Shown in pieces: positions 35,436 to 38,072 of a stretch of DNA of 64,000 nucleotides. The translations under genes and the position numbers were made by a program. Location of the stretch: NCBI GenBank assembly GCA_016208305.1, contig JACQYI010000078.1, positions 1 through 64,000 on the forward strand, in the 5' to 3' direction. Every line of letters begins with the position of its first letter. The stretch's first letter is position 1. Source of the DNA: Oscillatoriophycideae cyanobacterium NC_groundwater_1537_Pr4_S-0.65um_50_18. Its GTDB lineage: Bacteria > Cyanobacteriota > Cyanobacteriia > Elainellales > Elainellaceae. Under the pieces are notes generated by a model. That model had not been told where the DNA came from. It saw nothing but the letters and a program-made list of their open reading frames with translations, and made no database searches.

Positions 35436-35926
35436 TGAACTTTTCTTCCCCCTTGCCTCTGCGATCGCCGATCACATTCTGTACGCATAGCCCCTAGGTA
35501 CATACTCATACAATATGGGTAGTAGCCTTCGGGCAATGATTTTTCACTAATGATTTTTGACTGTATAAACCGATAAGTAAATCCTATGAGAGCGTACAAA
35601 GCTTCAAATCTGGTTTTCTATCTGTCTGCATAACGCTCCAAAACTTGTTCATTCATCCAAAATTCATTGGATCGATCTAATTATACTACATATACTACAG
35701 ATATTACATGATTGCTTTGATCAAAACTGGGTGGGAGTGATTCCTATTGTGAAGAATGCTTCGACCAAGGCAAAGTACCCTCAAGGGGAATATGCATTAT
35801 TCATCCAATAGCTGATCACACGTTGGATACCTCTAGCGCATTAAAATCGAGCTTGACTGCCTTAAGGTATCGAAAAGCCGGCAGTGTACACTCTCTCAAT
35901 AACCTGAATGAATCCGAAAGGGATGT
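35436..35926. other. Gene-free, AT-rich stretch
   Basis: These 491 bases lie between divergent genes. I see no gene, tRNA or strong hairpin. Promoters for the GNAT gene (leftward) and the dsRBD gene (rightward) should be here. Confidence 0.4.
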
Positions 35927-36499
35927 ATGAGTGAAAATGCGAAGAACCAGCTTCTAGAGTTACTCAAAAATCTTGGCTGTATTGAAGATTGCGCTGAGTT
36001 TCAGACTACTTTGGCATCTACAGCTCTTTCTCCTCTTCACCAGTCCACTGTAATCGTAAGATTTCCAGATGGTCGTACAGTTGAAGGAACAGGTCAAGGG
36101 AGGCGTAAGTCTGAGGCTGATATTGCAGCCGCACAAGTTGCCCTTGATAAAGTGCGTAACGACCATCCAGATCTCGTAATTCCCTGGAATGCGTTGAATG
36201 TGGAAGCACAAGCAGGGGATGCACTCATAAAGCTAGGGGTATATCTTTCAGCAGCTTTAAAGAGTGCAGATGATAAATCAAAATACTTACAAAGTTTAGA
36301 ATCTGATTTTTACCTGGCAAAAGTATTTGATCAGTGGAAAGCTCAAGGCGATCCAGACTTAGCTGTATGGGGTACTCACTTAGGCGAGAAGCGAAAAGCT
36401 ACGTTAGTTGAAGCATTGTTATGGCGGCGTTTTGGGAGCCAAGTTATCACTGATCAAGCGCCTATGAAACTTCAATTTCTATTGAAAACTTTGCAATAA
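35927..36499 (+). CDS. dsRBD protein with RNase III-like C-terminal half
   Basis: A 190-residue protein. Residues about 5-85 form a double-stranded-RNA-binding domain: NQLLELLKNLGC, then VIVRFPDGRTVEGTGQGRRKSEADIAAAQVALDKV. Residues about 98-185 resemble an RNase III domain: GDALIKLGVYLSAAL (compare GDAVL), LESDFYLAKVFDQW and GEKRKATLVEALLWRRFG (compare the DALEALIGA helix). The order is reversed from standard RNase III, where the dsRBD is C-terminal. Only one acid of GDA and the glutamate in VEALL seem kept, so cleavage is doubtful. The function is unknown. It is flanked by gene-poor AT-rich DNA. Confidence 0.68.
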   Translation: MSENAKNQLLELLKNLGCIEDCAEFQTTLASTALSPLHQSTVIVRFPDGRTVEGTGQGRRKSEADIAAAQVALDKVRNDHPDLVIPWNALNVEAQAGDALIKLGVYLSAALKSADDKSKYLQSLESDFYLAKVFDQWKAQGDPDLAVWGTHLGEKRKATLVEALLWRRFGSQVITDQAPMKLQFLLKTLQ

Positions 36500-37553: not shown

Positions 37554-37596
37554 AAAAGGGGGAGGACTTTTCGATGAGAAACGTCCTCCCCCTTTT
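37554..37596. terminator. Bidirectional terminator between response regulator and cyAbrB
   Basis: Arms 37554-37567 and 37583-37596 (aaaagggggaggac with its complement) pair perfectly over 14 bp, and the stem continues with one mismatch into the loop. T tracts on both sides allow it to serve both convergent genes. Confidence 0.85.
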
Positions 37597-37679: not shown

Positions 37680-38072
37680 TCATTCCTCAAATATCTCCTC
37701 TGAGTCAATTTGCTTCAGTCGAATATGTTTCCGCCCTAAAGAAATTTCAAATTCGTCCCCTGGCTTCAAATCCATCTGCTTTGTATAAGCAGCTCCAATC
37801 AGCAAATTACCATTGGCTTGAACCGTGATGCGATAGCTGGCACTTCGCCCTCCACGCCCGTTACTGGCCTGCTTACCATCCAGCTCAATTTCCTTCGCTT
37901 CTAGAAGTGCATTATAGAACTTCATCATATTGACGCGCTCTACACCATTCTTTGTAATCGTGTAGTAGCCGCATTGCTTAGCCTTCTCTTCTTTGCTGAG
38001 GTTCTCTAGTTCCTTAACTTTTGCAAGGAGCGCTTCACCTAACAGCGGCTCAGTTCTTTTCTTCTTACTCAT
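37680..38072 (-). CDS. AbrB-like transcriptional regulator, cyAbrB type
   Basis: A 130-residue protein of the cyanobacterial cyAbrB family, whose AbrB-like DNA-binding fold is C-terminal rather than N-terminal. Diagnostic stretches are GEALLAKVKELENLSKEEKAKQCGYYTITKNG near residues 12-43, VNMMKFYNALLEA, and the DNA-binding part GRSASYRITVQANGNLLIGAAYTKQMDLKPGDEFEISLGRKHI near 73-115. Members regulate carbon and nitrogen metabolism genes in Synechocystis. The GGRSASY wording is closest to the cyAbrB2 type as I recall it. It converges with the response regulator, with the shared terminator between them. Confidence 0.93.
   Translation of the reverse strand: MSKKKRTEPLLGEALLAKVKELENLSKEEKAKQCGYYTITKNGVERVNMMKFYNALLEAKEIELDGKQASNGRGGRSASYRITVQANGNLLIGAAYTKQMDLKPGDEFEISLGRKHIRLKQIDSEEIFEE

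Follow-up and report, generated by a model that had tools for sequence, protein, structure and literature searches.

A cyanobacterial protein with an N-terminal dsRBD fold and a predicted C-terminal RNase III fold, carried in part by mobile elements

Papers on cyanobacterial RNase III and on Mini-III describe bacterial RNase III proteins of two kinds only, class 1 enzymes, in which the nuclease domain precedes a dsRBD, and Mini-III, which is the nuclease domain alone (PMC10989914, PMC5141509). The E106Q variant of Bacillus subtilis Mini-III is completely inactive, its cleavage being abolished (PMC5141509), and deletion of the Mini-III alpha5b-alpha6 loop abolishes cleavage but not binding (PMC7725608). 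Here we describe a gene in a 64,000-nucleotide stretch of cyanobacterial DNA (the window), for which an original prediction had proposed both domain types in swapped order. A search of the non-subscription literature revealed no description of a dsRBD-first bacterial architecture, although an earlier mention is possible.

The gene and its two predicted domains

The features of the gene, with the evidence for each, are as follows.

35917..35922, + strand: Shine-Dalgarno-like AAAGGG, 4 nt before the ATG (sequence)
35927..36499, + strand: complete gene for the dsRBD-RNase III-like protein, 190 codons plus stop (open reading frame, homologs, indications of purifying selection)
35936..36163, + strand: N-terminal dsRBD fold, residues 4-79 (AlphaFold2, VIA-align, weak Pfam dsrm match, hhalign)
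36185..36496, + strand: predicted C-terminal RNase III-fold domain, residues 87-190 (AlphaFold2 of the full protein and of the domain alone, fold matches)
36218..36220, + strand: D98 codon in the GDAL motif (invariant in 10/10 sequences; hhalign onto RNase III GDA)
36401..36412, + strand: T159-E162 codons, TLVE (residue alignments, hhalign, Mini-III alignment)

The gene stands alone between an acetyltransferase gene 0.5 kb away and a response-regulator gene 0.2 kb away. Its surroundings had been called AT-rich and gene-poor; the composition bears this out (40-44% GC versus about 50% for the window), but with genes within 0.5 kb on either side the stretch is not poor in genes. The GC3 of the gene was 0.31, compared with 0.42-0.56 in 11 other genes of the window. 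A 43-bp inverted self-match (37554-37596) between the response-regulator gene and a cyAbrB gene is probably a shared terminator hairpin. Genes for cyAbrB-type regulators occur less than 10 kb from the dsRBD-RNase III-like gene in three loci, in varying orientation (window, 37680-38072; L002, 12918-13310; L033, 18003-18392).

An AlphaFold2 model of the full protein, built from a five-sequence alignment (mean pLDDT 88, pTM 0.79), displayed an alpha-beta-beta-beta-alpha fold in residues 4-79 (helix 4-15, strands 23-30, 37-45 and 51-58, helix 61-79). Superposition of residues 1-84 on solved dsRBDs with VIA-align gave Z of 9.3-11.6, including 9.5-10.4 for RNase III dsRBDs (9.6 for that of E. coli Rnc) and 10.9 for the dsRBD-dsRNA complex 1di2; the top-ranked matches included the protein-binding 8igd, 4wyq, 4x8w, and 5cff, tied with RNA-binding ones. 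An hhalign comparison with the dsRBD of cyanobacterial RNase III (E = 1e-6) was in agreement with the model, and the dsRBD that had been called clear is thus upheld, with a weak Pfam dsrm match for the window protein itself (16.7 bits, E = 0.011, below the gathering cut-off). The same Pfam model matched five of eight family members, the best relative at 1.7e-5, and the family profile gave a weak match to the genuine dsRBD of an RNase III from another cyanobacterium. A viral fold search returned mainly dsRBD proteins, its other matches being weak and unconvincing.

The dsRBD does not retain the RNA-contact motif KKxAK at the start of its last helix. Specifically, the motif reads KSEAD in the window protein; none of the eight members keeps the last Lys, which is Asp, Glu, or Asn instead, and only one keeps the middle Lys. 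The His of a [G/S]PxH-like loop is kept in most members, and the net charge of the domain is negative in six of the eight, versus +2 for the dsRBD of the host RNase III. The domain may therefore bind RNA weakly or serve in protein contact.

Residues 87-190 were all-helical in the full-protein model (helices 87-107, 114-124, 127-139, 154-172, and 178-189). Since the dsRBD filled the fold-match list of the full protein, we predicted this domain alone, from ten sequences (pLDDT 87.3, pTM 0.81). The top 30 PDB matches returned by Foldseek for the domain were nearly all members of the RNase III superfamily, with probabilities up to 0.98 but E-values of 0.24 and above. In VIA-align, the domain gave Z 8.3 with E. 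coli RNase III (7r97; rmsd 2.9 Å over 98 residues), 8.1 with B. subtilis Mini-III (4oun; 3.5 Å over 95 residues), 9.4 with Giardia Dicer, and 8-9 with mitoribosomal RNase III-fold proteins; HEPN and other helical nucleases were absent among the fold matches listed. A Z of about 8 is moderate for an all-helical domain, and the assignment follows from the consistency of the matches rather than from that value itself. The models thus give good but not overwhelming support for an RNase III superfamily fold, as had been proposed for this half, and not for an unrelated one. Searches with Pfam (PF00636) and NCBIfam gave no match for the domain, and a sequence-profile search of solved structures gave nothing useful. 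Aligned by hhalign with 30 cyanobacterial RNase IIIs the domain reached E = 0.017, and column shuffling produced a score as high in 4 of 150 profiles. With Mini-III the corresponding number was 14 of 150, which is no significant match. Judged by sequence alone, the RNase III assignment is weak.

Residues of the predicted active site

The hhalign alignment placed D98 of the GDAL motif onto the GDA Asp of RNase III and E162 of the VEAL motif onto the FEA Glu, positions that we take to be D45 and E117 of the E. coli enzyme. The two motifs, GDAL and a VEALL helix, whose RNase III-like spacing had been noted, align with the two catalytic helices of RNase III. E162 was also aligned with E106 of B. 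subtilis Mini-III. None of the ten sequences, which reach down to 47% identity, departs from either acid; K157, A158, and V161 are equally constant, and position 159 is Thr or Ser.

Among the four classical metal-site acids (E41, D45, D114, and E117), only the D45 and E117 equivalents are present; the E41 equivalent is Ala, that of D114 is Thr (T159), and that of E38 is Asn or variable. The class 1 signature ERLEFLGDA reads NVEAQAGDA here. The protein had been said to lack most catalytic acids, which goes too far by this count: two of the classical acids are lost and two are kept.

A comparison with Mini-III disclosed a closer likeness. The host Mini-III, aligned to 1u61 and 4oun, keeps the GDA Asp and the Glu and carries Thr three residues before the Glu; 4oun has Gln at that Glu, consistent with the E106Q variant. 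D98 and E162 correspond to the conserved Asp and Glu (E106) of this class, and on these alignments the site appears equal, in the acids kept, to that of the active Mini-III enzymes. At the position of E. coli D114, the canonical RNase III of the host (L039, G000 C49) carries Ala (LAAAFEAIL); in this lineage, losing that acid alone is therefore no mark of inactivity.

Other elements are missing. No alpha5b-alpha6 loop is present, as only 14 residues separate helices 127-139 and 154-172 in the AlphaFold2 model. An aromatic residue (Phe or Tyr) three before the Asp forms the 'ball' of the RNase III dimer interface, and this position is occupied by the invariant Gln95. The suggestion that the protein is probably inactive is thus drawn in two directions: the E38, E41, and D114 equivalents, the loop, and the last KKxAK Lys are missing, but D98 and E162 show no variation and correspond to the two acids of active Mini-III (PMC5141509).

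Relatives, selection, and genomic context

Thirteen cyanobacterial genomes, the source among them, carry relatives: eight have an intact full-length gene and five have decayed or split copies.

Intact copies: window genome (G000), G009, G055, G355, G464 (L001), G528, G540, G574
Decayed or split copies: G008 (two), G013, G453, G567 (L002, Tildeniella), G621

The intact relatives in the seven other genomes share 47-73% identity with the window protein. The gene is sparse and scattered in cyanobacteria, with matches in 12 of 388 genomes of a class sample and 3 of 386 of a phylum sample; one of the three phylum matches is to nothing more than the dsRBD of a genuine RNase III. No relatives were found in annotated phages, nor in IMG/VR by peptide-pattern scans, which can miss divergent ones; a plasmid search gave only weak, partial, chance-level matches.

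All eight intact members have the dsRBD ahead of the RNase III-like domain, which, together with the structure predictions and fold comparisons, supports the swapped order. Conservation is higher in the C-terminal domain, which holds most of the invariant columns. Pairwise dN among relatives was well below dS in both domains; between the window gene and its relatives, dN was 0.16-0.59 and dS 0.75-2.9 in the pairs for which dS could be estimated. These values indicate purifying selection on both domains and, with the intact relatives, confirm the 190-aa frame at 35927-36499 (+) as a real gene. Upstream DNA is little conserved past the start region, except in the closest copies.

In two copies the gene is divided at the linker (Tildeniella L002 near 8246; G008 L009 near 1695), and a programmed frameshift was considered for them. 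In L002, however, an in-frame start codon is lacking close to where the C-terminal half begins, visual inspection showed no slippery site, and decay is plain in other copies; gene decay is the likelier explanation. G008 carries two damaged copies, L009 (G008 C78, around 1501-1860) and L008 (G008 C88). In one of them, the dsRBD and RNase III-like halves form separate overlapping open reading frames, the second opening with ATG, and the next gene encodes a NERD-UvrD helicase that matches a PADLOC candidate model.

The gene was found in diverse surroundings. In G009, it lies inside a prophage head module, between the portal and the scaffold and major head genes, in the order terminase, portal, HNH endonuclease, homolog, GIY-YIG-type protein, scaffold, and major head protein. 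This module spans 689-15790 of L012 (G009 C70:19000-38500), and its portal-scaffold stretch carries as cargo the homolog, the HNH and GIY-YIG-type genes, and DnaJ-like and GTPase-like proteins. The G574 copy shares its 8-kb contig with genes for ParA, ParB, and a resolvase-like protein, a relaxase lies near the G528 homolog, that of G355 is located between identical transposase copies, and type I restriction genes are near that of G055. In the window and in Tildeniella, the gene is placed among chromosomal genes. Conserved neighbours, which had been proposed as a check, were not found: no neighbour is common to the loci, and none of the eight points to an operon partner. The phage, plasmid, and transposon contexts and the lack of a common neighbour are consistent with an accessory gene that travels on mobile elements. 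In two distant genomes, the next gene downstream, in convergent orientation, is of the TPR-CHAT (caspase-like) type (L032 10103-13495; L034 1991-4663), which may be chance, such genes being common in cyanobacteria.

The best-assembled genome of the same genus (G003) has no copy; the acetyltransferase and the response regulator are encoded there on two different contigs, amid other genes. Given this absence from the closest well-assembled congener and the low GC3, the window gene was probably acquired horizontally. It replaces neither of the ordinary enzymes of its host, since the genome also has an ordinary RNase III (C49) and an ordinary Mini-III (C41). PADLOC-DB gave no match for any of the eight members at E up to 1, and PHROGs assigned no family.

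Possible functions and comparison with known RNase III proteins

The best reading of these data is a mobile accessory protein of the RNase III superfamily that would act on dsRNA, either cutting it slowly or specifically or binding it without cutting. Our leading explanation, held tentatively and at somewhat less than even confidence, is that a horizontally acquired, stand-alone gene encodes an N-terminal dsRBD fold, a short linker, and a minimal C-terminal RNase III fold that cuts dsRNA with D98 and E162. We infer that two subunits would pair via the RNase III fold and that the targets of the pair would be double-stranded or structured RNAs, such as sense/antisense duplexes of phages, plasmids, or other mobile DNA. 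The RNA would then be cut slowly or at restricted sites by the reduced D98/E162 metal site, as in Mini-III, and the dsRBD would supply weak RNA affinity or partner contact. The RNase III folds recovered from the domain alone, the invariance and Mini-III-like identity of the acid pair, the selection, the stronger conservation of the C-terminal half, and the mobile contexts argue for this explanation; the weak sequence evidence, middling Z, lost acids, missing loop, Gln95, degenerate KKxAK, and mostly negative net charge of the dsRBD argue against it.

The same losses could instead mark a catalytically dead adaptor or antagonist, as the original prediction suggested. By binding dsRNA, or by pairing with an enzyme of the host (RNase III or Mini-III), such a protein would shield or redirect substrates, for instance by protecting phage or plasmid antisense duplexes. 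We regard this as a close rival, somewhat less likely than the leading explanation. Without the E38, E41, and D114 equivalents and the Mini-III cleavage loop, the domain could resemble known non-catalytic RNase III folds, such as the mitoribosomal proteins among its fold matches, and the signature of Mucor R3B2 is likewise altered (PMC4395119); moreover, one copy lies in a prophage, and both host enzymes are available as targets. A dead protein, however, has no need of an invariant D98 and E162, and R3B2 has lost exactly this Asp (PMC4395119), nor is there a conserved partner gene. A role in defence against phages would agree with a distribution that is mobile and in part phage-borne, but such a role finds no echo in a defence-family match or a constant partner.

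The dsRBD could also be of the dimerisation type, like TRBP or Loquacious dsRBD3 and Staufen dsRBD5, with the helical domain as a scaffold and RNA not the main ligand. The protein-binding dsRBDs 8igd, 4wyq, 4x8w, and 5cff are among its best matches, the third KKxAK Lys is acidic or Asn throughout, and the domain is net negative in most members. However, the Z differences fall within ties (1di2 stands at 10.9), the loop His survives in most members, and the acid pair is invariant, so we consider a pure protein-protein module improbable. A chance open reading frame or mis-assigned domains, to which the sub-threshold Pfam scores might point, is hardly credible, as it is contradicted by the intact relatives in seven other genomes, the signs of purifying selection, and the confident, consistent models.

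A broader proposal is that these proteins are phage- and plasmid-borne dsRNA-processing enzymes with an N-terminal dsRBD and a Mini-III-type site, forming a separate bacterial RNase III class that takes part in conflicts between mobile elements and hosts via dsRNA; we regard it as rather unlikely. A conserved reverse-order family on mobile elements, in cells that also have the ordinary RNase III and Mini-III, would add one more class to the bacterial ones. With such a family one could study, in a small and testable setting, how mobile DNA deals with bacterial dsRNA; it would also be a natural experiment on the minimum number of acidic residues required by an RNase III site.

Among known proteins, Mini-III (class 4; B. 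subtilis MrnC, 4oun/6tnn) shares the minimal RNase III core without a long N-terminal part, the GDA Asp and FEA/VEA Glu, Thr at the D114 position, and the fold (Z 8.1); unlike the two-domain protein described here, it is a single domain, with no dsRBD and a long alpha5b-alpha6 insertion. Class 1 RNase III (E. coli Rnc) has both domain types (Z 8.3 for the nuclease domain, 9.6 for the dsRBD), but here their order is reversed, the signature is altered, D114 is replaced by Thr, and KKxAK is degenerate. Mucor R3B2 (6zdw; Z 5.5) likewise combines an RNase III-like domain of altered signature with dsRBDs; its RNase III domain, however, comes first, followed by two C-terminal dsRBDs, and its Asp is changed to Glu (PMC4395119). 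Dictyostelium DrnA and DrnB carry an N-terminal dsRBD ahead of their RNase III domains (PMC4894637; also PMC10328071), and the likeness is one of domain order, since these eukaryotic proteins are much larger and have tandem catalytic RNase III domains.
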